Source of the DNA: Planctomycetota bacterium
GTDB lineage: Bacteria; Planctomycetota; UBA8742; UBA2392
Assembly (NCBI GenBank): GCA_019912315.1
Contig: JAIOJA010000001.1
Coordinates: 1 to 64,000, forward strand
DNA: 64,000 bases
Reading direction: 5' to 3'
Part shown: positions 432-24,923 of the stretch, one piece after another
Layout of the letters: every line of letters begins with the position of its first letter
Numbering within the stretch: position 1 is the first letter of the stretch
Position numbers and translations under genes: made by a program
Notes under the pieces: model-generated
Seen by the model: only the letters and a program-made list of their open reading frames with translations
The model's database searches: none
What the model was told of the DNA's origin: nothing

Positions 432-3110
432 TCACGGTGTGGCCACAAGACAGACCCGGCCGTCCCTTGTCAGCACCATGAGCTCACTGCTCCCGTGATT
501 GTGGAAGCAGGCCACGGCGTCCGGCGCGCCCAGCCTGGTGATTGATGTCTGCTCGAAACCTTCGCCTTCCTTCTTGAACCAGTTGACGTGCGTGCCCGTC
601 ACGCCCGCGACCCGGCCCGGACGCAACAGCGTCGCGCACAAATAATCGCCGCGCGCCGCCACAATGCGCGATTCACAGCGCAACCCGAACGTGCCGGCCT
701 TGAGCGCACTCCAGTAGAGAGACCCGTGTTCATTGCGGCCGGCAAGTTCAATGTTGCCAGGTGACGGCGCGATCAGCGAGCCTTCGGCGCCCGGCAGAAA
801 TCCCATCGCGCGCCAGTGCGTCGCAGCTTCCTGCCACTTTGTTTCGGTGTGTGCGGGGCTGATCGTGCCCAGCCAGTACGCCCGGCGATCGCCTTGCAGC
901 AGCAGCCCCGTGACGCCGCCGTTTCGAATCAGGGCGCCGTGCCATGCGCCCGGGGCGGACAGCGGATACTCGGCGTACGGCTCGAACCCTTCGCCGCGTC
1001 TGATCACAACCGTGTTTCGCCAGTCCTCAAGCAGGGCGATCATGTTGTCACCGGCGCTGAGAAGGCGGACATCCCCGCGCAGGCGCTCGGTGCCCCGTCC
1101 GCGAAAGAACTGGCCGTCCGCACGACGGGCGAAGCACGAGAGTTCGCGGTCTCCTTCATCCGTGTCGGCGGAGACAACCAGCATGTCCGCTTTTGGACTG
1201 ACCGCCAGCCCGACTACCGGGCGCCCGCCCTCGCGGACAAGCCCGGTGCCGCCGGTGGGGGAGAAGCGGTAGATGCGTCCGTCCTGAAACGCGACAAACA
1301 GCTCGCCGGTGTCGTCCGCGAAAACGGCGGCGACCACCACGCCCGTCGCGATCCGCACCGTCGAGACGACATCGGTGTCAGCGGAGGTTGCCTGCTTCGG
1401 GCGCCGCCTTGCTTCATGCCGGACGGCGAATTGCGCGTCGCTGACCAGGGCGTCGGACCACGCCTTGCTGTCGAACGGAATGGTTCGGTTGTTCTGGCGG
1501 CGGCGCAGGTTGTTCGCAATTCCGCACAGGGCGCGGTCGCGAAGCTCGGCCCGGTGCTCGCCCATCGATTCGCGCCGCGCCAGGGTCGCCAGCATGTTGT
1601 AGTAGCGGGCGGCCTGCGCTTCCTGACCGGGGGGCGCGAAGAAGCGGTCGGACTCGTCCGTGAGTTTCAGCAGCTCATCCACGTTGGCGTCGTCCGCGTG
1701 GATCACGGCCATGTGCAGGGCACACGGCAACGCGCCGGGGTGGGGACGCGCGCGCCAGCCCTCGCTCAAGAATGTCAGCGCCTCCGCGCCGGCGCCGGTC
1801 TTGGCCATCATCAATTCGCCGGCGCCCGCGTATTCCCCGCGGGCGGCCAGCAGACGCGCGGCAGCGCGGTACTCCTCCAGCGCCCCTTCATCGTCACCGG
1901 CCCGGCGCAGCAGATCACCGGCGGGCACGTGCTGCCCGATCTTGCGGTACAGGCGCACGGCCTCATCCACGTTGCCCGCGGTCTCCCAGGCGCGCGCGGC
2001 CGACACCGGATCATTCAGCTTCTTCAGGTACAGCACCGCCGCGTCGTGATGCAGCCCGCCCTGCTGCAGCGTGAGCGCCGCGGTGCGGTAGTCGCCCAGC
2101 AGCTTGCCATAGATGTACGCGGCGCGGCGGTGGTCACCGGATTTGCGGGCGTCGTCGGCGGCCTTGCGGTATTCGCCGACAAGCGCGCCGTAGATATCCG
2201 GTTCCGTGAACCACATGCCGGCGCCGCCGGAGCCTCTGCCAATCAGCCCGCCCAGGGAATACATCAGGTTATGGAATGGCAGCAGCGCGCTGCCGGACGG
2301 TCTGGCGCCTCGCGACGCTTCCGCGCCGAGTGGCAACGCGCGGCGCAGGGCTTCGTCGACGCGCCCTTCCTTGAACTTGCGCAGCAGGTCGCGCAGGGCG
2401 GCTTCCTGCTTGCCCATAAGGCCTTCGGTCATCTTCGGGTTGTGGTTCAGCCCTTTGCCTATCAGGTTCCCGCCCGCCTGCTGCATCCCCTTGCTGCCGA
2501 ACATGCCTCCGAGTTTCGCCAGCACCTTGCCTGCGGCGAACTCAGCCTTGCCAAGCATCGACTTGCCCGTGCCGGAAGCGTCGGGCGCGGGCTCCTGTTC
2601 ACCGATGCCATCGCCGCCTTTGTCCAGCAGCTCTTCGGGCACGTCATCAGGCCTGTCCAGAATGAACTCGCGAATCTCGTTGGGCTGCGGGGGCGCCTTG
2701 GGCAGCGGCTTCCAGTCGCGCCGGTGGACCGGGCCTGGTGCAAGTAACTCCGACAGGTTCATCGGCGTTGACAGGTCAAGTGCGTAAAAGCCGTCGGGCA
2801 GGCAGAGCATCGGGCGCAGCCCCCGGGCTTCGTCGGGCAGCAACGCGGGCGAAAGTTCGGCATCGATGGGCACAAACACGCCGTCGAATATTTCCGCCAT
2901 GCGCAGGCCGCCGGCAAGCAGCATTGTCTGCGGCGTGTCCGGGCGGATCAGGCAGCCGCCGCCCGTTCGGTAGACGCGCGGCAGCGGCTCCGGGCCGGTT
3001 TGCGCCAGGGCCTCAAGCACCGCCGCGGAGTCGCCACCGGCAAAGAACCATGCCGCGCATTTCGCGTGGCCGGGCTCGGGCTTTCTGAAAATGCGCAGGG
3101 CGACTTCCAT
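432..3110 (-). CDS. TPR plus beta-propeller protein of a MoxR-vWA ternary system (N-terminal bpX6-like region)
   Basis: 892 aa; central TPR-like repeats (AAYIYGKLLGDYRTAALTLQQGGLHHDAAVLYLKKL), C-terminal WD/propeller-like blades; 3-nt start/stop overlap with upstream gene. Confidence 0.65.
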   Translation of the reverse strand: MEVALRIFRKPEPGHAKCAAWFFAGGDSAAVLEALAQTGPEPLPRVYRTGGGCLIRPDTPQTMLLAGGLRMAEIFDGVFVPIDAELSPALLPDEARGLRPMLCLPDGFYALDLSTPMNLSELLAPGPVHRRDWKPLPKAPPQPNEIREFILDRPDDVPEELLDKGGDGIGEQEPAPDASGTGKSMLGKAEFAAGKVLAKLGGMFGSKGMQQAGGNLIGKGLNHNPKMTEGLMGKQEAALRDLLRKFKEGRVDEALRRALPLGAEASRGARPSGSALLPFHNLMYSLGGLIGRGSGGAGMWFTEPDIYGALVGEYRKAADDARKSGDHRRAAYIYGKLLGDYRTAALTLQQGGLHHDAAVLYLKKLNDPVSAARAWETAGNVDEAVRLYRKIGQHVPAGDLLRRAGDDEGALEEYRAAARLLAARGEYAGAGELMMAKTGAGAEALTFLSEGWRARPHPGALPCALHMAVIHADDANVDELLKLTDESDRFFAPPGQEAQAARYYNMLATLARRESMGEHRAELRDRALCGIANNLRRRQNNRTIPFDSKAWSDALVSDAQFAVRHEARRRPKQATSADTDVVSTVRIATGVVVAAVFADDTGELFVAFQDGRIYRFSPTGGTGLVREGGRPVVGLAVSPKADMLVVSADTDEGDRELSCFARRADGQFFRGRGTERLRGDVRLLSAGDNMIALLEDWRNTVVIRRGEGFEPYAEYPLSAPGAWHGALIRNGGVTGLLLQGDRRAYWLGTISPAHTETKWQEAATHWRAMGFLPGAEGSLIAPSPGNIELAGRNEHGSLYWSALKAGTFGLRCESRIVAARGDYLCATLLRPGRVAGVTGTHVNWFKKEGEGFEQTSITRLGAPDAVACFHNHGSSELMVLTRDGRVCLVATP

Positions 3111-5857
3111 CAGCGCCTCCGCCCGACGGTGGCCAGCTTGAGAGCCTGCCCGACCCGGCCCAGCGCATCCGGCGATGTCGGGCCGCCGGTGATGCTTGCG
3201 GGTCCGTAGCGCGTGCCGTCCGGGAGGCTTGCCGCGACGGTGCCCCGGAACACATAGAACATCGCGACCAGGTTTTCCGCCGCGTCGAAGATCGCGACCT
3301 GGCCGTGCTTGTCCGAAACAAACAGCAACCCGCCCGGTGAGTAGGCGTAACGCTGGAAGCGGGCGGGATCATACTTGCAGGGCGACACCTGCCCCGGTCG
3401 CAGATGAACCTTGCGCGGGTTCAGCGCGGAGGCCTCGCGCTTGCGCCGGATGAAATCTTCAATCGCGTGGCGTCCCTGAAGAAACGCCACTTCAAGGCGC
3501 TCGCGATCCCAGCGAACAAGGTGCGTGAACTTGCCGCCGTACACCGTGAACCAGCTGTCGCCCGTCTCTACCTCGACCAGTGAGTGGCTGCGCCCGGCGC
3601 TGACTGTCAGCAGGCGCTCTGCCGTGTCACCAAGTTCAAAGCACACCGCGCCGGCTGTCTTGTTTCGAAAAGCCACCCGCGCGCCGTCGGCGCTGACGGC
3701 CAGTCCGCGCACGCCGGCCTGCGCGTTGTACTCTCCCAGAAAGCGCCACTCGGGGCCGCGATAGATCAGCACGCGTTCGTGGCGTTCTCGCTCCGTGCGC
3801 ATCAACAGCGTGCCGCCGGCGTGAACGGCTTCGATGACGCGTGCGTCCTTCAACAGCGCGCCGCCGTCAGCGCGCGGCACCCAGGATTTCCACAACCCGG
3901 TTTCAGTCAGCAGTCCGATTCGTCCTTCCTTGGGCACGTGCGCGAGCACGCTGCAGACGCCCGCGCCCCGCAGGCGTTGCAGGTCTGCCGGCGGCTGGTG
4001 TACAACTTCGACAGACGGCGGCAGCGGTCGCCCGGCGGCTTGCAGAGCGGCCTTGGCGGCCTCATCAACGCGACGTCCGCGCGCGGGCGGTGGCGCAACC
4101 TCGCCCGTGTCCAGGTCGAGCGCCAGCACTTCGTGGCCGCCTTTGCCGTCCGGTGTCGTCACGCAGACGCAGTGGCAGTCGTCGAGATAGCTGAGCGCCG
4201 GCGAGTCGGGGAACAGCGTGACGTCGGACCGGATCGTGTGGATCACCGCCCGCCGTGCGGCCAGGTCGTAGTGGGCCACCAGCAGCGCGTGATTGTCGCG
4301 ATAGCAACAGGCGAGTCCGCCGCGCACGCCGGCGATAGCGACGGGCTCGCCGGCCAGGCGCCCGCTTCGCAGGGGGCGAGGCAGGATTTCGCCGTAGTCG
4401 GCGGCGGGCTCCCACAGATGCAGCAGCCCGCCCTCAGACACCGCGAACAGGTAGCGACCTTGCGGATCAAGCGCCAGGTGCCGGATGGCGCTGACGACAC
4501 CGAACCGGAACGGGTAGGCGATTGGTTCAACCTCGCCGGTCCATGGCGACCGGCGCGAGGACTCCGTGACGGGCGGCCGAGGGCTGTCAGGCTGCAACAA
4601 CTGAAAGCTGCGCACGGGCACCTGTTGCCCATGCCGGAGTTGACACAGCTCGGCGTATCCCAGCTCATCTACGGTCAAAGCGAACAGCCGGACGTTGGGG
4701 GTGAGCCTGCGTGCGGCCGCGCGCACGTCTTGCTCGTGCAGGTTGCGAGGGTGGGTCAGCAGCACGACGTCGCGAAACTCGTAGCCCGGCTCGTCGAGGA
4801 CGCGCTCGAGTGCCAGGCCGGGGTTCGGGGTCAGGTCGCTGACTTCAAGCAAGGCGGGTCTGCCATCGGCGACTGGGGCGCCGCCGTTGCCGGTGGTCGC
4901 GTAGCGCAGCATTCGCCCGTGCTGTTCCGCGCGCCGCCCGAATGCGATTGCCGCGGCGGTCAGTGCCAGTCGCACTTCGCCCCAGGTTCGGACTCCCTGG
5001 TCACACAGGACGATCATGTCGTCACGCACGCGGGACTGGGGTTCTTCCCGCTGCCAGTACAGAAGCTCGTTTTCAGCGTAGCGGCGCAGGAACTCCGGCT
5101 CATCGACGGCGAATTCGCCGGGCAGGATCTGGTCCGGGTGTCCGCGGTTCGTGACGCTGCTGTAGCCGCCCACGGGCAACTCGCTGTACATCACGTGGCG
5201 CGGCGGAAGCGTCAGGGCGCTGATCATCTGGTCAATGAACGGCGCGACTCCGGCCAGTCGCTTGCGTTTCAGCGCGTCCACAAACGCGTCACCTGGCGCC
5301 CGTGGTGACGGTGGCGGCAGATCGGGCGGCGGGCTTTCCTGATTTGGCAGGGGCCCGCGCCCGTGGCGCAGCCAGTGCGCGAGGTCCGCGTCCGTCAAGG
5401 CCTCCAGCGCCGCGTCCAGGTGGGCGCTGAAACGGTCCGGCTCCAGGGGCGGAGAGACGGGGCCACGGGGCAGGAATTGCAGCTCGCCGAGCGGCGTCTG
5501 GCGGCGCAGCAGGGCGCACAGTTTGCGCACGTCGATGCGCCCGGGCACGCGAGGCAGAGTCGCCGTCAGGCTTGCAAACAGCGCGCCCGCGTTGCGAATA
5601 CTGTTCGCGCCGGTGTTCCAGATTCTGTGCAGGCGACCGTCGCCGCGCGTCAGGCGCCGTACGAAATGCAGCACAAAGGCGAAGTGTACCGGGCCGTCGC
5701 GGGCGCCCGCGTCTTCCATGAACTGGGCAAGCGCGGGCGTGAGTACGACGGTATTGCCGTCGGCGTCAACGATCGCGTCGAAGGTGGGGGACCAGTCAAG
5801 GCCGCCAAGCGACTGGGCGTAGCGGTTCGGGACGATCAGGTATTCCAGCTCGCTCAT
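3110..5857 (-). CDS. vWA-like domain plus beta-propeller protein of the ternary system (bpX5-like N-terminus)
   Basis: MSELEYLIVPNRYAQSLGGLDWS start; vWA-like RDDMIVLCDQGVRTWGEVRLAL…DVVLLTHPRN; propeller blades AIRHLALDPQGRYLFAVSEGGLLHLW; ATGA overlap with upstream gene. Confidence 0.65.
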   Translation of the reverse strand: MSELEYLIVPNRYAQSLGGLDWSPTFDAIVDADGNTVVLTPALAQFMEDAGARDGPVHFAFVLHFVRRLTRGDGRLHRIWNTGANSIRNAGALFASLTATLPRVPGRIDVRKLCALLRRQTPLGELQFLPRGPVSPPLEPDRFSAHLDAALEALTDADLAHWLRHGRGPLPNQESPPPDLPPPSPRAPGDAFVDALKRKRLAGVAPFIDQMISALTLPPRHVMYSELPVGGYSSVTNRGHPDQILPGEFAVDEPEFLRRYAENELLYWQREEPQSRVRDDMIVLCDQGVRTWGEVRLALTAAAIAFGRRAEQHGRMLRYATTGNGGAPVADGRPALLEVSDLTPNPGLALERVLDEPGYEFRDVVLLTHPRNLHEQDVRAAARRLTPNVRLFALTVDELGYAELCQLRHGQQVPVRSFQLLQPDSPRPPVTESSRRSPWTGEVEPIAYPFRFGVVSAIRHLALDPQGRYLFAVSEGGLLHLWEPAADYGEILPRPLRSGRLAGEPVAIAGVRGGLACCYRDNHALLVAHYDLAARRAVIHTIRSDVTLFPDSPALSYLDDCHCVCVTTPDGKGGHEVLALDLDTGEVAPPPARGRRVDEAAKAALQAAGRPLPPSVEVVHQPPADLQRLRGAGVCSVLAHVPKEGRIGLLTETGLWKSWVPRADGGALLKDARVIEAVHAGGTLLMRTERERHERVLIYRGPEWRFLGEYNAQAGVRGLAVSADGARVAFRNKTAGAVCFELGDTAERLLTVSAGRSHSLVEVETGDSWFTVYGGKFTHLVRWDRERLEVAFLQGRHAIEDFIRRKREASALNPRKVHLRPGQVSPCKYDPARFQRYAYSPGGLLFVSDKHGQVAIFDAAENLVAMFYVFRGTVAASLPDGTRYGPASITGGPTSPDALGRVGQALKLATVGRRR

Positions 5858-6564
5858 GTCGCCCCCAGTCGGACCGACGCGCGGGTCAGGCGGCTGAAAG
5901 CGTCGCGGGGAATAATGTCGATGCCGGCGTGGCGCATCAGGGCGAGTTCGTTGTGGTCGGCGCCAAGTGCTTCCAGCAGCGCGCTCTCCGGCAGGTCGGG
6001 GTCGGGGGTCCATCCAAGAGGGCACAGCAGGTGCTCGCCCCACAGGCGTTCCCCATCCAGCGGCGGCAGTCGTTGACCTGTCAACATCACAGTTTCGCCA
6101 CAGCGCGCGGCGTCAAGTGAGTTGAGATCCCGCGAAGCCGCGAGCTCGATCCACGTGGACAGCGTGGCCAGGCGACACAGCAGCGCTGTCGCGGGGCGCG
6201 CCACAGTTGAGCGCTTCAGTGCAAGCACAAGCCGCGGCGCGGGCTCTGCTCTCTCGGGGACGGTCTGTTGCGGTTTCGGGACCAGCGCCGAGGCAAGTGG
6301 CACAAAGCCGTCGTCGGGGACATCGAATACCGGCAGGGTGCGTCCACACAGGCGCCAGTGCTTATCCGCGCGCTCAAAGAACCGCGCGCCCTGTACCGGT
6401 AGCAGTACGCGCGGGACTTCGAAGCCCGCTTCGTCCCAGCGCACCCACAGAAACCGGGCGTCCGCGCGAACCTGCACCGACGGGTGCGCGCGCAGGCGGC
6501 CAAGTAGGCTCAGCGCGTCGACGGGTATGCGGGCCAGGCATGTGTTGGTGAGTATTCCCGGCAT
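5854..6564 (-). CDS. Small partner protein of the ternary system (bpX2-like)
   Basis: MPGILTNTCLARIPVDALSLLGRLRAHPSVQVR…; position between MoxR and vWA genes; translationally coupled. Confidence 0.5.
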   Translation of the reverse strand: MPGILTNTCLARIPVDALSLLGRLRAHPSVQVRADARFLWVRWDEAGFEVPRVLLPVQGARFFERADKHWRLCGRTLPVFDVPDDGFVPLASALVPKPQQTVPERAEPAPRLVLALKRSTVARPATALLCRLATLSTWIELAASRDLNSLDAARCGETVMLTGQRLPPLDGERLWGEHLLCPLGWTPDPDLPESALLEALGADHNELALMRHAGIDIIPRDAFSRLTRASVRLGAT

Positions 6565-6566
6565 GG

Positions 6567-7691
6567 TTAACCAAGCTTCGAATGCAGGTCTCTGGCACGT
6601 TCCAGCAGGTGCTCGCGGGCGCGGCCGTCCTCGATCCATGCGCAGCGATCGCCCAGGCCGGCCAGACGTTCGCGGGCGCGTGCGATTCCGCTCAGGGTCA
6701 GGTTGCCGCCCTTGAGTTCGGCGCTGACGGCGTCCAGCTCCCGCGCGATGTCTTCGGGCTCGACACGGGATTCGGCACGCGCCAGGGGGTGCGACTGCTC
6801 GCCCTGGTGGTGCTCGAGGATGCCGTTCACCAGCGCGCGAAGGGGCGCGATCTGTTCCTCACGGTCCCACACGTAGCGCAGCACCCACAAGTCGCCGGGT
6901 TGCGCTCGGTCGCGTCCGCACAGGATGGCACTCGCGGCGAGCAGCTTCTGCACCTTGACGGCGCGGCGGTCGCTGAAATCAATGCCCAGGTCGCGCACTT
7001 TGAACACCGCGTCCATGTATGCTTCGCGAATGCTTGACAAGTCAATACTCCAGAGACGCGCGGCCAGTCGGCGCAGTTCTTCAGAGGTAACCGCGTGGGT
7101 CTGCTCGACAGGTTGTTCGAGGTCCCAGCCCGCGCGCAACAGCGCGCTCATGTTTTCGCGCGGCAGGTTGTCGACGTGGCAGCGCAGCAGGAAGCGGTCA
7201 AAGAGCGCGCGCAGGGCGTCGTCCTCGGGCAGGCTGTTGCTTGCGCTGAACAGCGACAGCAGCGGCAGTTTATGCAGCTCCGCGCCGCGCCTGTAAGTTC
7301 GCTCGTTCAGCACGGTCAGCAGGTTGTTCAGGATCGCGCTGTTCGCGTTGAATATCTCGTCCAGAAACACGAACTCCGCGCGCGGCAACATGCCGTCGGT
7401 GATGGTGGCAACAACACCCTCGCGCAATCTGGCGATGTCCACGGGGCCGAAAATCTCGTTGGGCTCGCTGAAGCGTGTGAGCATGTACTCGAAGTAGGGC
7501 GCTTCCACGTCCCCCGAGAAATGGCGTATCAGGGCGGACTTGGCCGTGCCGGGCGGGCCGTACAGGAACAGGTGCTCGCCGGCCACGACGGCCAGTGCGA
7601 TCAGCTCAATGACCTCGTCACGATCGACGAAGCGCTGCTTCAGCTTCTCGACCACATCCCGGCGCAGGCGTTGCGCGATTTCGTCCGTCAA
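6567..7691 (-). CDS. MoxR-family AAA+ ATPase
   Basis: Walker A GPPGTAKS, Walker B FVFLDEIFNA, sensor-1 SASN; probable TTG start overlapping upstream stop (TTGA). Confidence 0.85.
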   Translation of the reverse strand: MTDEIAQRLRRDVVEKLKQRFVDRDEVIELIALAVVAGEHLFLYGPPGTAKSALIRHFSGDVEAPYFEYMLTRFSEPNEIFGPVDIARLREGVVATITDGMLPRAEFVFLDEIFNANSAILNNLLTVLNERTYRRGAELHKLPLLSLFSASNSLPEDDALRALFDRFLLRCHVDNLPRENMSALLRAGWDLEQPVEQTHAVTSEELRRLAARLWSIDLSSIREAYMDAVFKVRDLGIDFSDRRAVKVQKLLAASAILCGRDRAQPGDLWVLRYVWDREEQIAPLRALVNGILEHHQGEQSHPLARAESRVEPEDIARELDAVSAELKGGNLTLSGIARARERLAGLGDRCAWIEDGRAREHLLERARDLHSKLG

Positions 7692-8266
7692 CTGGACCTC
7701 ACAAGTTCGATGTACTCGTTGGCGCGCCCCTGCGGGCACCAGCCCGGCTTCGGGTGGCGGGCGTATCTCTCCGCGTACAGCAGCATCAGGCCCTCGTGAT
7801 CTCCGAAGTTGAGTCCGACTGGCGCCTCGTCGATGTCGCAGAGAACGCCGCTCAAGGGCAAACGCCGGAGCGTTGCTTCCAGACATCGCACCAGCGCGTC
7901 GCCCGGGTTCAGGGCTTTGGCGCGCCTGTGTACGCGCGCGGCGTAGCGCATGGTCAAGTCGGCCGAGTAGTGGTCGCCCGGGCTGGACGCCACGCCCTGC
8001 CACGCGATCTGCCGCTGAACCTGGTCGTCATCCTCGTCGTGATTGAGCATGAACCAGCAACTCTGGCGGAGCACTTCCGCTGCCTTGAGAGCCGTTTCCG
8101 GCTGCATGGGCGGCGGGCGTCCCGGCAGGTCAAGCAAGTAGCGTTTGTAGCCCGATTCCAGCGCGCGCAAGGCTTCCGTATCGTGCGCGTTGGCAACGAC
8201 GGGCGCCTTGCGAAAAACCACTTCGCCGCGTGTAAACAGAACATGCAGGAACCGAGCCAGACTCAT
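7688..8266 (-). CDS. Small partner protein of the ternary system (bpX-family-like)
   Basis: MSLARFLHVLFTRGEVVFRKAPVVANAHDTEALRAL…; first gene of the five-gene overlapping operon. Confidence 0.5.
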   Translation of the reverse strand: MSLARFLHVLFTRGEVVFRKAPVVANAHDTEALRALESGYKRYLLDLPGRPPPMQPETALKAAEVLRQSCWFMLNHDEDDDQVQRQIAWQGVASSPGDHYSADLTMRYAARVHRRAKALNPGDALVRCLEATLRRLPLSGVLCDIDEAPVGLNFGDHEGLMLLYAERYARHPKPGWCPQGRANEYIELVRSS

Positions 8267-8320: not shown

Positions 8321-10852
8321 CTACTTGCCCGTGATGGGGCTCTTGGGCTTGTCCTTGTCTTCGCGTTCCTCGCGTTCTTTTTCCCGCTTCTTGTGTTCGG
8401 TGATCACGGGCATACTCGCCTGCTTGAGGAACAGAATCGCGAGGCAGTTGTTCACGTTGGCGCTCATGTCGCGGGTGACGCCTTCCAGTTCGCGCTCGAC
8501 GCCCCAGCTACCGTCGAGGTTCTGGTTCTCGATCAGTCCCTCGGCGCCAACGCGGTACCAGTCGAGTTCCCCCTCAAGTTTGCTGATGCCGGCCATCACG
8601 CACGCGCGCTCCACTGAATACAGGTTGTAAAACGTGCCCCAGCCGTCGCTGCGGCCCGACATCAGCGCGTTACGGGCGCCGCTGAACTGCTCCGGCGTGT
8701 AGTACTGCGCGCGCACCAACGCCTCGGCGCCGCGGATCGTCAGCCCAATCTTGTGCGCGAGGTCCTGCTTCAGTTTGCCTCGCACCTTCAACTCATCCAT
8801 GCAGATGGTGAGGCTGCTGATACCGGCGGCGGTCATCTGCAGGTTGTAGCCGGTGCTTCCGCAGGAGTAGCTCCAGCCCCCCGGCTTGATGGTGTCATTG
8901 AAGTCGCTGGCGGTCTTGCGCCCGCGGTCGTCTTTATCGCCTTCGCGCTCGTCCTCAACGTGGACGTATTCCACCGCTTCGGCATTCTCGTCCGGCGTGT
9001 ACTGGCGGATCAGCCGCTCGGCCTCGTCCGCGAATACAGCGATCCCGAACTCCGCACCCAGCAGGCTGGCGGCCTTGCAGCCCAGCATCGCGTACTGGCT
9101 GAGCGAGTTGTCGCTGTGCACGCGCCCGGTTGTGTTCGCGGCGCTGTAGTTCCAGCCGCCCTGCTTGCCGCCCACGTACGCGGCGTCGATGTTGTTGAGG
9201 ATCGCGGTGATCGCTTTGCGATGGGCCTCGCCGATGTCGTTCCAGACCTGGCGGCGGGCCGCTTCGAAATCCTCCGGGGTATCGACGTACAGAATGCCGG
9301 CCTTGCGTTGCGCGGCCTCGTAGTACTTCTGCAGGCACATCAACACGCAGGCGCTGTCGTAGGTGCCGGCGCGGCGCAGTACTTCCGGTTGCAGCAGCCA
9401 GTCAACGCCACGCTTGATGGCCTCATGTTCCGGCGACCAGCCGCCGTGCATCAAGGCAAGCAGGCACAGCGCCGTGTTTCCCGGGCGGCCGCTGTGCATT
9501 CCGGGGAAGCTGCCGTCGTCGTTCTGGATTTCCGCCAGGTAGTCACACCCGTCGCTGATGGCGAGGTTAACCCGACCCTGAAAGTCGGCGGCACCCTGCT
9601 TGGCGCTGTTGGCGTGCAGAACCGCAAGGGCGTAAAACAGGCGTCCGATGTTGTCCAGCTCGCGCCCGGCCAAAGGGGCTCTGCCCGTAGCGTACAGCCC
9701 GCCGCTGAGCGCGATGCAAGTCAGCGCTGTCTCGCAGGTCGTGCTTTCCAGGCGCGTCCAGGCGGTCTCATGCAGCCCCAGGTCCCGGGCCATGGTGTCG
9801 CGCGGCAGGATGTACCCGCCTGGCTCAAGTTCCGCCACGCCTCTGCGCCGCAGGGACGCGCGCCACAGGTCGGCGCTCTCGCGTTCCGGGCTGTATTCGG
9901 CGGACAGCGACAGCGCGACCAGCAGGCGCGCGCCACGCCACGGGCGCTCGCCATACTCGCGATCAAGCCGGTCCAGTGTCTCCGTCACGTGCTTGCCCAT
10001 CGTTTCGACGGCCTTGGTTCCGCTGCGTCGCAGGGTCTTGTCAGGCAGGTTCGACGCGAGCCCGACGGCCGCCAAAGCCATCAGGTTCGGGTGAAGGTCG
10101 TATGCTTCGTTGATGGCGGGTTTGTGCAGCCCGGACCAGGCGACCTCTTTCTTGTGGGCGCCTTCCAGGGCCTTCAGGTCAGTCTCCCAGAGTTTGGCGT
10201 CGATCTCGATATCCATTTCGAGGGCGGCGCGCATCATCAGCGCGCGCCAGAGAATATTGCCGACCCAGCGCGGCTGGGTCTGGTCGCGCTGTACCAGGGA
10301 GGACTTCGCCGAGGTCGCGTCCGTCAGCGCGTCGCCCGCGCGCAGTAGATTCTCAACCTTCAGCTTCAAATCATCTTTGCGACCGAGGCTGTCGCGCAGC
10401 CAGGCGGCCCGCGCGGTCAGCACCATCACAGCCAGGGGTGCGAGGTCGTTGCCGCCTGGTGCGGGGGTGTCCAGAAAACGCTGCAACTGGCGATCCAGGG
10501 CGGGCGTCACCGGTAACCCGGATTGAAGCACTGCCCATAGGCGCAGGCACTCCAGGCGTGTCAGGGGCGCGTCGGATTTGTCCTCGAAGGGCTCAAGCAC
10601 ACAGGGGCGAATGCGCCTGCCCGACATCAGGTCGGTTTCGAATTCCGGGCGCAGCAGAAAGCGCAGCCCGTTATACAGGGTTTGCTGCTCAGTACTGAGC
10701 GTCAGGCGCAGGGCGTCGGCGCTGTCAAGTTCTTCCTGCGTGAACTCACGGGGCGCGGGCTCGTCGTCGGCCGATACAACCAGGCCGGCGCAAAGGGCGC
10801 AGACAAGAAGAAGCGTGATCGCGGGACGGACAAAACGCATGTGGGCGGCCAT
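8321..10852 (-). CDS. Secreted squalene/terpene-cyclase-fold (prenyltransferase-like alpha/alpha toroid) protein
   Basis: Signal peptide MRFVRPAITLLLVCALCAGLVVS; repeated NDDGSFPGMHSGRPGNTALCLLALMHGG, GGWNYSAAN, QNLDGSWG motifs. Confidence 0.65.
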   Translation of the reverse strand: MAAHMRFVRPAITLLLVCALCAGLVVSADDEPAPREFTQEELDSADALRLTLSTEQQTLYNGLRFLLRPEFETDLMSGRRIRPCVLEPFEDKSDAPLTRLECLRLWAVLQSGLPVTPALDRQLQRFLDTPAPGGNDLAPLAVMVLTARAAWLRDSLGRKDDLKLKVENLLRAGDALTDATSAKSSLVQRDQTQPRWVGNILWRALMMRAALEMDIEIDAKLWETDLKALEGAHKKEVAWSGLHKPAINEAYDLHPNLMALAAVGLASNLPDKTLRRSGTKAVETMGKHVTETLDRLDREYGERPWRGARLLVALSLSAEYSPERESADLWRASLRRRGVAELEPGGYILPRDTMARDLGLHETAWTRLESTTCETALTCIALSGGLYATGRAPLAGRELDNIGRLFYALAVLHANSAKQGAADFQGRVNLAISDGCDYLAEIQNDDGSFPGMHSGRPGNTALCLLALMHGGWSPEHEAIKRGVDWLLQPEVLRRAGTYDSACVLMCLQKYYEAAQRKAGILYVDTPEDFEAARRQVWNDIGEAHRKAITAILNNIDAAYVGGKQGGWNYSAANTTGRVHSDNSLSQYAMLGCKAASLLGAEFGIAVFADEAERLIRQYTPDENAEAVEYVHVEDEREGDKDDRGRKTASDFNDTIKPGGWSYSCGSTGYNLQMTAAGISSLTICMDELKVRGKLKQDLAHKIGLTIRGAEALVRAQYYTPEQFSGARNALMSGRSDGWGTFYNLYSVERACVMAGISKLEGELDWYRVGAEGLIENQNLDGSWGVERELEGVTRDMSANVNNCLAILFLKQASMPVITEHKKREKEREEREDKDKPKSPITGK

Positions 10853-10961
10853 GGGGCGGGCTCGGGGCGGGCTCGGGGACACGTATAGGGTAAGGCACAG
10901 CGCGTGATTCACCAAGCATCCGCGCGACATGCCATCGCGCATTCGAGCGTCGCGCTACTCG

Positions 10962-21476: not shown

Positions 21477-24400
21477 CTACATGTTGCGGCGGTACTGCCC
21501 GCCAACCTCATACAGCGCATGGCTGATCTGGCCCAGCGAGCACTGCCTTACGGTCTGCATCAGCTGGTTGAAGATGTTGCCGTTTTCCAGAGCCGTCCGC
21601 TTCAAGGCTTCGAGGGCGTCTGGCGCGTCCTTTTGGTGGCGTTTCTGAAAGCTGCGCAGGCGCTCGATACAGGTGTCTTTTTCTTCCTTGTTGGCGCGCG
21701 CAAGTTCGATCTTCTGCCCGGTGGCGGGCGTCTGCGGGTTCAGGAAAGTGTTCACGCCGATGATCGGCAACTCGCCTGAATGCTTCAGGCGCTCATAGAA
21801 CATGCTTTCTTCCTGAATCTTGCCGCGCTGGTACTGGGTCTCCATCGCGCCGATGACGCCACCGCGTTCCGTGAGACTGTCAAATTCCTTGAGTACCGCT
21901 TCCTCAACCAGGTCCGTCAGCTCTTCCACTATGAAGCTGCCCTGCGTCGGGTTCTCGTTCTTTGCGAGCCCGAGTTCCTTGTTGATGATGTGCTGGATCG
22001 CCAGCGCCCGACGCACGCTTTCGTTCGTCGGCGTGGTGATCGCTTCGTCGTAGGCGTTCGTGTGCAGGCTGTTGCAGTTGTCGTAGATCGCGTACAGGGC
22101 CTGCAATGTCGTGCGAATATCGTTGAACTGAATTTCCATGGCGTGCAGCGAACGCCCGGAAGTCTGGATGTGGTACTTCAACATCTGGCTGCGGTCGTTC
22201 GCGCCGTACAGCCGCTTCATGGCGACGGCCCAGATGCGGCGGGCGACGCGGCCTATGACCGAATATTCGGCGTCCACGCCATTGCTGAAGAAGAAGCTGA
22301 GGTTCGGCGCGAAGGCGTTCACGTCCATGCCGCGGGCGCGGTAGGCCTCGACGTATGTGAACCCGTTGGCGAGCGTGAAGGCGAGCTGGGTGATCGGGTT
22401 GGCGCCGGCCTCGGCGATGTGGTAGCCGCTGATGCTGACCGAGTAGTAGTTGCGGACATTGTGGTCAATGAACCACGACTGCACGTCGCCCATCATTTTC
22501 AGGGCGAACTCGATGCTGAAGATGCAGGTGTTCTGGGCCTGGTCTTCCTTCAGAATATCGGCCTGGACGGTGCCGCGCGTGGCGCTGACAGTGTCGTCTT
22601 CAATTTTCGCGAACTCCTCGTCGCTAAGCAGCTTGCGGATATCTTCCCAGGGTTTGTCAAAGCAGCGCGGGTCCTGCCAGGCGGCGTTTCGCAGCGCGTG
22701 CGGGTCGGTCATTTCCGTGGGGAGAGTTTTGGCGTCGCGGATCGGGACGAACAGACTCTCCGGGCCGCGGTCTGGCTTAAGCCTGCCTTGCTCCATGAGC
22801 TGTTTGCGGGCCTGCTGCCGGATCGCCGCGTTGAAGAAGAAGGCCAGAATGATCGGCGCCGGGCCGTTGATGGTCATGCTGACGCTGGTGGTCGGCGCGC
22901 AGAGGTCGAAACCGGCGTAGAGGATTTCCATTTCTTCGACGGTGAAAATCGCGACGCCGCTTTCGCCGACCTTGCCGTAGATGTCCGGGCGCTCATGCGG
23001 GTCTTCACCATAGAGCGTAACGCTGTCAAAGGCCGTGCTGAGGCGCGCCGCGGGCTGGCCTTCCGATACAAGGTGAAAGCGGGCGTTGGTGCGCGCCGCC
23101 GGGCCTTCGCCCGCGAACATGCGGGTCGGGTCCTCGCCGCTGCGCTTGTAGGGATACACGCCGCCTGTGTACGGGAAACGCCCGGGGACGTTTTCTTCCA
23201 GCAGCCAGACCAGTACGTCGCCCCAGTCGTGGAATCTGGGCAGCGCGACCTTGGGCAACCGGGTGCCGCTGAGGGTCCTGGTGTAGTTCGCAACGTGGAT
23301 TTCACGCCCGCGTACTTCGTAGACGTTCTCCGCGGCGGTGTAGCTTTTCTTCAGCTCAGGCCAGGCCTGCAACTCGGCCAGGCACTCCTTGTCCAGCTGT
23401 TTCAGCAATTCGTTGTAGCGCTTGCGCAGCTTCAGCAGCCCGGCGTCCTTGACGTCTTCCTTCAGGGCAACCAGCGGCTCGGCTGGTGCGTCGCCGAGAT
23501 CAAGCAGCACGCTGTATGTCGCGCCAAGTTTGCCGGCGATTGCGCGCTGCTGCTCCACCCACTTGTGGTAGCCGCGCACGGATTCGCTGACTTCGGACAG
23601 GTAGCGCACGCGCTTGCCCGGCACGACGGTGGATTGTTCCGGGCCCTCGGGGCCTGCGACCTGCGTGAAATAGCGGGTTGCAAGCTCACGCCCGCCGGCT
23701 TTGCCGAGGCGCGCCAGCAACTCGATGTAGAGCGCATTAACACCCACGTCATTAAACTGGGCCGCGATGGTCGGGAAGACCGGCATGGTCTCGGGCAGCG
23801 CGTCACCAGGCGCGCCCTTGTTGCGCCACACCTGCTTGCGGATGTCGCGCAGGGCATCCTTGCCGCCGCGGCGCTCGAACTTGTTCAGTGCCACCAGGTC
23901 GGCAAAGTCGAGCATCTCGATTTTCTCGAGCTGCGTGGGCGCGCCGAACTCGGGCGTCATGACGTAAAGGCTGACGTCGCTGAACCTGGTGATCGCGTCG
24001 TCGCCCTGGCCGATGCCGCTGGTTTCCACAAGTATGAGGTCGTAGCCCGCGGCCTTGCAGATATCGATGGCTTCGTCGAGGGCTTCGCTGATTTCGGTGT
24101 GCGAATCGCGCGTGGCCATTGAGCGCATGTAGACGCGGTCGCTGTTCAGGGCGTTCATGCGGATACGGTCACCCAGCAATGCGCCGCCGGTGCGCTTGCG
24201 GGTGGGGTCGATGCTCAGCACGGCGACGTGGCTGTCCTCAAAATCAAGCAGATAGCGGCGCAGCAACTCATCGGTCAGGCTGGATTTGCCCGCGCCGCCA
24301 GTGCCGGTGATACCGAGTACCGGAACCTGGTGCTTACGTGCTGACTTCTTGCCGGCCACGGCCGCGTGCAGCCTTTCAAGCTGTTCCGGCGGTGCCTCGG

Positions 24401-24923
24401 CGTTCATTTCTGCCAGCGTGATGAGTCGGGCGACGCTGCCCTTGTGGTGGGTATCGAAGTCGTTGAGTTCGCCGTTAAGATCATTGAGTGTGCTGAAGTC
24501 GCACTCGGCGATCATGAGGTCGATCATGCCCTCAAGCCCTAGCTCGCGCCCGTCCTGGGGGCTGAAGATGCGTTTGATGCCGTAGTCGTGCAGCTCGCGG
24601 ATTTCTTCGGGCACGATCACGCCGCCGCCGCCGCCGAAGATCCTGATGTGACCCGCGCCCTTCTGTTGCAGCAGGTCGTGCATGTACTTGAAAAATTCCA
24701 TGTGCCCGCCCTGGTAGCTGCTGACAGCTATGCCCTGGGCGTCTTCTTCAATGGCCGCGTTGACGATTTCCTCCGCGCTGCGGTTGTGACCCAGATGGAT
24801 CACCTCCGCCCCATGCGCCTGCAGGATGCGGCGCATAATGTTGATCGACACGTCGTGCCCGTCGAATAGCGACGCGGCGGTCACGAAGCGGATCTTTGTC
24901 TTGATCTGCGTGGCTTGTTTCAT
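21477..24923 (-). CDS. icmF: Fused isobutyryl-CoA mutase (B12-binding, MeaB-type G-protein and mutase domains)
   Basis: ASLFDGHDVSINIMRRILQAHGAEVIHLGHNRS (B12 domain), GITGTGGAGKSSLTDELLRRYL (P-loop), mutase region VSISGYHIAEAGANPITQLAFTLANGFTYVEAYRARGMDVNAFAPNLSFFFS. Confidence 0.93.
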   Translation of the reverse strand: MKQATQIKTKIRFVTAASLFDGHDVSINIMRRILQAHGAEVIHLGHNRSAEEIVNAAIEEDAQGIAVSSYQGGHMEFFKYMHDLLQQKGAGHIRIFGGGGGVIVPEEIRELHDYGIKRIFSPQDGRELGLEGMIDLMIAECDFSTLNDLNGELNDFDTHHKGSVARLITLAEMNAEAPPEQLERLHAAVAGKKSARKHQVPVLGITGTGGAGKSSLTDELLRRYLLDFEDSHVAVLSIDPTRKRTGGALLGDRIRMNALNSDRVYMRSMATRDSHTEISEALDEAIDICKAAGYDLILVETSGIGQGDDAITRFSDVSLYVMTPEFGAPTQLEKIEMLDFADLVALNKFERRGGKDALRDIRKQVWRNKGAPGDALPETMPVFPTIAAQFNDVGVNALYIELLARLGKAGGRELATRYFTQVAGPEGPEQSTVVPGKRVRYLSEVSESVRGYHKWVEQQRAIAGKLGATYSVLLDLGDAPAEPLVALKEDVKDAGLLKLRKRYNELLKQLDKECLAELQAWPELKKSYTAAENVYEVRGREIHVANYTRTLSGTRLPKVALPRFHDWGDVLVWLLEENVPGRFPYTGGVYPYKRSGEDPTRMFAGEGPAARTNARFHLVSEGQPAARLSTAFDSVTLYGEDPHERPDIYGKVGESGVAIFTVEEMEILYAGFDLCAPTTSVSMTINGPAPIILAFFFNAAIRQQARKQLMEQGRLKPDRGPESLFVPIRDAKTLPTEMTDPHALRNAAWQDPRCFDKPWEDIRKLLSDEEFAKIEDDTVSATRGTVQADILKEDQAQNTCIFSIEFALKMMGDVQSWFIDHNVRNYYSVSISGYHIAEAGANPITQLAFTLANGFTYVEAYRARGMDVNAFAPNLSFFFSNGVDAEYSVIGRVARRIWAVAMKRLYGANDRSQMLKYHIQTSGRSLHAMEIQFNDIRTTLQALYAIYDNCNSLHTNAYDEAITTPTNESVRRALAIQHIINKELGLAKNENPTQGSFIVEELTDLVEEAVLKEFDSLTERGGVIGAMETQYQRGKIQEESMFYERLKHSGELPIIGVNTFLNPQTPATGQKIELARANKEEKDTCIERLRSFQKRHQKDAPDALEALKRTALENGNIFNQLMQTVRQCSLGQISHALYEVGGQYRRNM

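Follow-up and report, generated by a model that had tools for sequence, protein, structure and literature searches.

What does a compact run of five genes at the end of a planctomycete contig encode, and what might its products do together? We studied this question in a stretch of 64,000 nucleotides, here called the window, whose position 1 is the first base of contig C62 in a 4.0-Mb genome of 87 contigs, the close named relatives being Planctomycetota metagenome-assembled genomes. A preliminary description had listed five minus-strand genes that overlap or almost touch and had proposed that they form a MoxR-vWA-beta-propeller ternary system. The coordinates and junction sequences, when read again, were all as claimed (Table 1), the junctions being, in order, a 4-nt TTGA overlap, a 2-nt gap, a 4-nt ATGA overlap and one shared nucleotide. 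The assembly ends 431 bases beyond the last cassette gene, and this contig end (positions 1-431) contains repeated units of the GGTCAACC type. The upstream gene at 8321-10942, encoding squalene-cyclase-like repeats, was considered as a sixth member and rejected, because it belongs to a paralogous family that is unlinked to the cassette in relatives; that family is large, with several copies in these genomes, often in tandem, and its adjacency to the cassette is put down to chance. Elsewhere in the window, positions 21477-24923 encode a 1148-aa protein of IcmF-like architecture, in which a B12-binding domain is joined to MeaB GTPase and methylmalonyl-CoA mutase domains.

Table 1. Positions of the cassette genes and protein domains in the window, and of the retron parts found elsewhere in the same genome.
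Feature	Position	Strand	Match or basis
bpX4 protein, 192 aa	8266-7688	minus	PF19920, 1.9e-37 (Pfam)
bpMoxR, MoxR AAA+ ATPase of the RavA clade, 374 aa; its TTG start overlaps the stop codon of bpX4	7691-6567	minus	PF20030, 1.8e-90 (Pfam)
bpX2 protein, 236 aa, alpha+beta	6564-5854	minus	PF19918, 1.5e-40 (Pfam)
vWA-like/beta-propeller protein, 915 aa	5857-3110	minus	bpX1, 5.4e-5 (Pfam; 23.4 bits, cut-off 27)
Domains of the vWA-like protein	bpX0-like N-terminus, about aa 1-200; vWA, about 276-420; WD40-like propeller, about 440-835; bpX1, 838-899		
Third component, bpX3/TPR/propeller, 892 aa	3110-432	minus	bpX3, 6.7e-12 (Pfam)
Domains of the third component	bpX3, 16-164; Gly/Ala-rich linker, about 165-240; TPR, about 241-520; propeller, about 560-892		
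Retron RT of the window's genome	C12:43385-44749 (L078:9383-10846)	minus	retron RT models
msr-msd-like RNA of the window's genome	L078:10736-10910 (G000:C12)	minus	upstream of the RT; also in 11 other family genomes

Each of the five proteins matched the Pfam family expected for it, and the genes were found together in a conserved order in other genomes, two observations that decisively upheld the proposed family assignment. The cassette belongs to the beta-propeller class (subsystem 4) of MoxR-vWA systems, which Kaur et al. (2020, eLife, PMC7159879) had predicted. As described there, this class has a MoxR protein with a GXXXTAKS variant of the P-loop, a vWA protein that in a subset of cases is devoid of one or both metal-site aspartates, and a third component with a variable N-terminal region followed by C-terminal TPR and propeller; a subset of the systems carries additional conserved genes, and conventional effectors are absent, for which the class was called enigmatic. 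The preliminary description had further named bpX0 to bpX6 as partner domains, of which bpX1 to bpX4 were matched in the window and bpX0 in relatives only, with bpX5 and bpX6 being absent from the matches.

The fourth protein, taken to be vWA-like with a propeller, agreed with this description in its fold, even though Pfam gave no vWA match in the window copy. In its AlphaFold model (mean pLDDT 85.8) an alpha-helical N-terminus is followed by a Rossmannoid domain at 276-420 and then by the propeller, which was confirmed by Foldseek with fold matches down to 7e-11. As Pfam finds no vWA, the vWA call is based on the AlphaFold topology together with Asp286, which lies directly after strand 280-285 and is invariant in 31 vWA homologues. 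Across these homologues the usual metal-site motif DxSxS is changed to DxGxRxWG, without conservation of the second Asp, and the cassette vWA is thus degenerate, with one of the two metal-site aspartates kept. The weak bpX1 match in the window reflects divergence, since the corresponding protein of distant relatives matches bpX0 and exceeds the bpX1 cut-off.

For the third component, the proposed combination of TPR and propeller was corroborated by TPR/WD40 matches, including a match of the TPR region to IFT144 (6.3e-7), and the bpX3 domain at the N-terminus could be added. No transmembrane segment was found in the window protein, the best 19-residue hydropathy (1.75) lying inside the propeller, and among 28 third-component homologues only that of Hymenobacter had a clear one. 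Because Kaur et al. (PMC7159879) regard this segment as part of the variable region and set it as no strict criterion, membership in subsystem 4 was kept.

The P-loop GPPGTAKS and the Walker B motif FLDE were invariant in an alignment of 19 bpMoxR sequences, and the nearest solved structure was RavA (4.5e-59, profile positions 16-305), which was also the NCBIfam match. bpMoxR hence belongs to the RavA clade and is intact as an AAA+ motor. Since PF20030 is unspecific, being over its cut-off in most genomes, both score and context were used to call bpMoxR. In a six-contig genome of the family, bpMoxR is present in frame-shifted pieces (G001:C3:744464-745073), perhaps because of a sequencing error.

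It had also been stated that no obvious effector is visible, and indeed no enzyme-like or catalytic effector was recognisable in the cassette, in agreement with Kaur et al. (PMC7159879). The accompanying suggestion that one of the small proteins could be the effector was not borne out. The bpX2 model (pLDDT 91.8) had no PDB match at E<=0.001, and we therefore regard bpX2 as no recognisable enzyme, whereas bpX4, with invariant residues D103, R107 and R167, gave sequence matches at noise level only.

Conservation of the cassette was followed with home-built profiles in 103 loci from several phyla, consisting of the best 80 loci of a genome scan (roughly 600 or more loci) together with added loci and two plasmids, and thereby partly redundant. 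bpMoxR was detected in all 103 loci, bpX2 in 102, the vWA protein in 100, the bpX3/TPR protein in 94 and bpX4 in 90, some of the absences being contig ends. All five genes lay on one strand in 82 of the 103 loci, with the standard order in 78 of these 82 as judged by frame start, and a 4-base overlap was the commonest spacing at every junction of the complete loci. With tblastn, 12 further genomes of the family showed the same genes, arranged as in the window (without a bpX4 hit in three of the 12), and eight distant Planctomycetota had most of the cassette genes. While bpX2 occurs in essentially all cassettes, bpX4 is the least constant member, with otherwise complete cassettes being devoid of it in G006, G013 and G014. 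With all five genes on one strand in 82 of the 103 loci, and in this order in 78, the conserved unit resembles a cassette of five genes more than a system of three parts, which also tells experimenters what to clone. As separate observations, one locus has a split cassette (L112:3559-13658), with bpX4 and bpMoxR on one strand facing bpX2, vWA and bpX3 on the other, which could be either a real inversion or an assembly error, and in two genomes of one genus without bpX4 the gene immediately preceding bpMoxR on its strand encodes an M61 peptidase that has a PDZ domain (L049:10353-12173 and L054:7860-9680).

With a probability of about 0.62, we propose that the five gene products assemble into a single complex of the MoxR-vWA-beta-propeller class, which remodels proteins with energy from ATP. 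In such a complex the bpMoxR ring would dock the vWA protein, which together with the TPR protein would scaffold the ring with bpX2 as an obligate and bpX4 as a near-obligate adaptor, the propellers would recognise clients or danger signals, and ATP hydrolysis would remodel the captured client. The setting is most likely a stress or anti-invader response, in some lineages with a neighbouring retron, as suggested by genomic association. No experiments on any member of these systems were found in the literature searched.

The manner of inheritance bears directly on a different reading, which we find rather unlikely, in which the cassette would be a housekeeping assembly chaperone, like RavA-ViaA or CoxD-CoxE, that helps to assemble or repair an enzyme or a membrane complex of the cell and takes no part in conflict. 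Strong bpMoxR matches (about 300 bits) were present in 13 of the 16 genomes of the family, the match in G001 being split by frameshifts. Each genus other than that of the window formed a clade both in the vWA tree and in the third-component tree, and the window's genus itself was a clade in the former, with the window's genome as the basal branch, and was unresolved in the latter. With gene trees that group largely by genus, the cassette appears to be inherited vertically within the family. All five genes were furthermore under purifying selection (Ka/Ks < 1 in genus comparisons), with the propellers (Ka/Ks about 0.16-0.52) among the regions that change fastest, and with the slowest change in the TPR, the vWA core and the stretch before it, and the neighbouring genes are mostly ordinary metabolic ones. 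Such descent, selection and surroundings, as well as RavA being the closest solved relative, would all suit a housekeeping chaperone, but the distribution above the family level is patchy, with strong matches (at least 280 bits) in 15 of 284 other Planctomycetota genomes, and the cassette, leaving aside the seed genome, in 14 of 395 Bacteroidia. Its presence on two Bacteroidota plasmids and its recurrent retron neighbours also argue against a pure housekeeping role, and we thus prefer the remodelling complex with a probable stress or anti-invader setting.

In several relatives (G001-G005 and G009/G012) the cassette adjoins a reverse transcriptase (RT), and most of these genomes have a sigma factor and a DUF4349 gene as further neighbours. 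This neighbourhood is intact on contig C12 of the window's genome without the cassette, for which reason we consider the cassette site not to be fixed and read the difference as relocation. Horizontal acquisition in the window's genome was also considered, but relocation is likelier, as the gene trees keep this genome near its own genus.

Retrons belong to the known anti-phage elements. In genomes of the family, the RT that adjoins the cassette matches retron RT models, with higher scores for RT_other/outgroup than for RT_XIII. A diversity-generating retroelement was considered and rejected for this RT, as the retron models match best and an msr-msd-like RNA precedes it. That RNA, seen upstream of the RT in 12 genomes including the window's, folds like a retron RNA, combining a long hairpin with an inverted repeat of ~17 base pairs at its ends, and compensatory changes were found at 22 of the 53 predicted pairs of its fold. 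A retron with this covarying ncRNA adjoins bpX4 in two Planctomycetota genera, one of them the window's own. In the window's genome no obvious effector lies beside the retron RT, its neighbours being DUF4349, the sigma factor and an electron-transfer flavoprotein dehydrogenase-like gene.

Outside the family, the neighbours include retrons of type XIII, the parts of which in PADLOC are RT_XIII, HEAT-ARM_XIII or WGR_XIII, and SWIM_XIII. In a Pirellulales genome (G346; L167/L235), HEAT-ARM_XIII (7e-172), SWIM_XIII (2e-176) and the RT come after the cassette on the same strand, at a distance of 71 bp, and in a Flavobacterium genome (G349; L177/L227) SWIM_XIII (4e-230), WGR_XIII (2e-273) and an RT lie beside the cassette in convergent orientation. 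Judged by profile matches, both genomes thus have a complete type XIII retron as the immediate neighbour of the cassette. In a genome of Cytophagales (G330; L142/L236), RT_XIII (1e-187) is situated 185 bp upstream of bpX4 at a contig end. The regions before the RTs of G346 and G349 fold far better than shuffles (z of -9.4 and -7.6), and an Rfam search of the retron loci returned tRNAs only. A related SWIM and WGR pair adjoins the cassette in two further Flavobacterium loci (L151:16525-20972 and L164:16534-20975). In these two and in L161:2-4146, also of Flavobacterium, a SWIM and WGR/DUF6493/DUF7824/DUF7825 pair was noted at or near the cassette, and under the thresholds applied a retron-type RT was found in none of the three genomes.

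Among 38 genomes outside the family that carry both cassette and RT, with 53 RTs in all, three RTs were located within 6 kb of the cassette against 0.1 expected by chance (P about 1.5e-4), or P about 0.0045 when using only the two cases found after the hypothesis had been formed, both values being approximate with RTs hand-counted, genomes taken as independent and a mean genome size of 6.5 Mb assumed. At the genome level, an RT was found together with the cassette in 9 of 15 Planctomycetota against 34 of 269 without it (p=5e-5). Among genomes of at least 6 Mb the proportions were 8/12 and 24/46 (p=0.52), and co-occurrence is therefore not claimed; the 14 other cassette genomes in the Bacteroidia sample had no RT. 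The retron link is one of recurrent adjacency, not of obligate partnership. A retron-coupled system, in which the RNA and RT of a type XIII-like retron would provide the sensor or lock, and the MoxR-vWA machine the module that executes or disassembles, can draw on the complete retrons, the G330 case, the covarying ncRNA next to bpX4 and the excess proximity, but is made improbable by 35 of 38 other genomes that have both without adjacency, by the separate contigs in the window's genome, by a retron without cassette in G008, by the loss of co-occurrence after size control and by G330 and the family cases having generated the hypothesis. It is likewise doubtful that in some bacterial lineages cassette and type XIII-like retron are combined into a single immune module. 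If they did, the retron RNA and RT would sense infection and the effector-less AAA+/vWA/propeller machine would respond, each filling the gap of the other.

For the remodelling complex as such, a role in defence is thus something that we infer, with the recurrent retron neighbours in relatives as the best evidence. We go no further because PADLOC gave no match beyond noise for the five cassette proteins, and because of the vertical descent, the purifying selection and the mostly ordinary neighbours; the retron not being adjacent in the window's genome and the co-occurrence signal being lost with size control also speak against such a role. The retron neighbours nonetheless provide a concrete and testable partner, with G346 and G349 above all as the loci to test. 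No papers connecting retrons with these cassettes were found in the literature searched, and the novelty of the link is accordingly provisional.

Compared with known systems, the cassette resembles RavA-ViaA of E. coli in pairing a MoxR with a vWA protein. ViaA is not known to have a propeller, and bpMoxR, being 374 aa against about 500 aa for RavA, is without the C-terminal part of the latter. The type XIII retron is a direct neighbour of the cassette in several relatives, yet it is a separate element and absent from the window, where neither a SWIM motif nor a retron RNA motif was found, the RT of this genome being on another contig. With the class described by Kaur et al. (PMC7159879) the window cassette shares the GXXXTAKS MoxR, the vWA protein with its C-terminal propeller, the TPR-propeller third component, the extra small genes and the lack of a conventional effector. 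It differs in that its third component has no transmembrane segment, and its bpX0 and bpX1 are so diverged that bpX0 was missed and bpX1 fell under the cut-off. Moreover, the extra small genes (bpX2 and bpX4), published for a subset of the systems, are near universal in the loci examined here. We therefore regard the cassette as a new member of the class, which, as far as the published description was covered, goes beyond it in the five-gene composition and in the adjacency to retrons.
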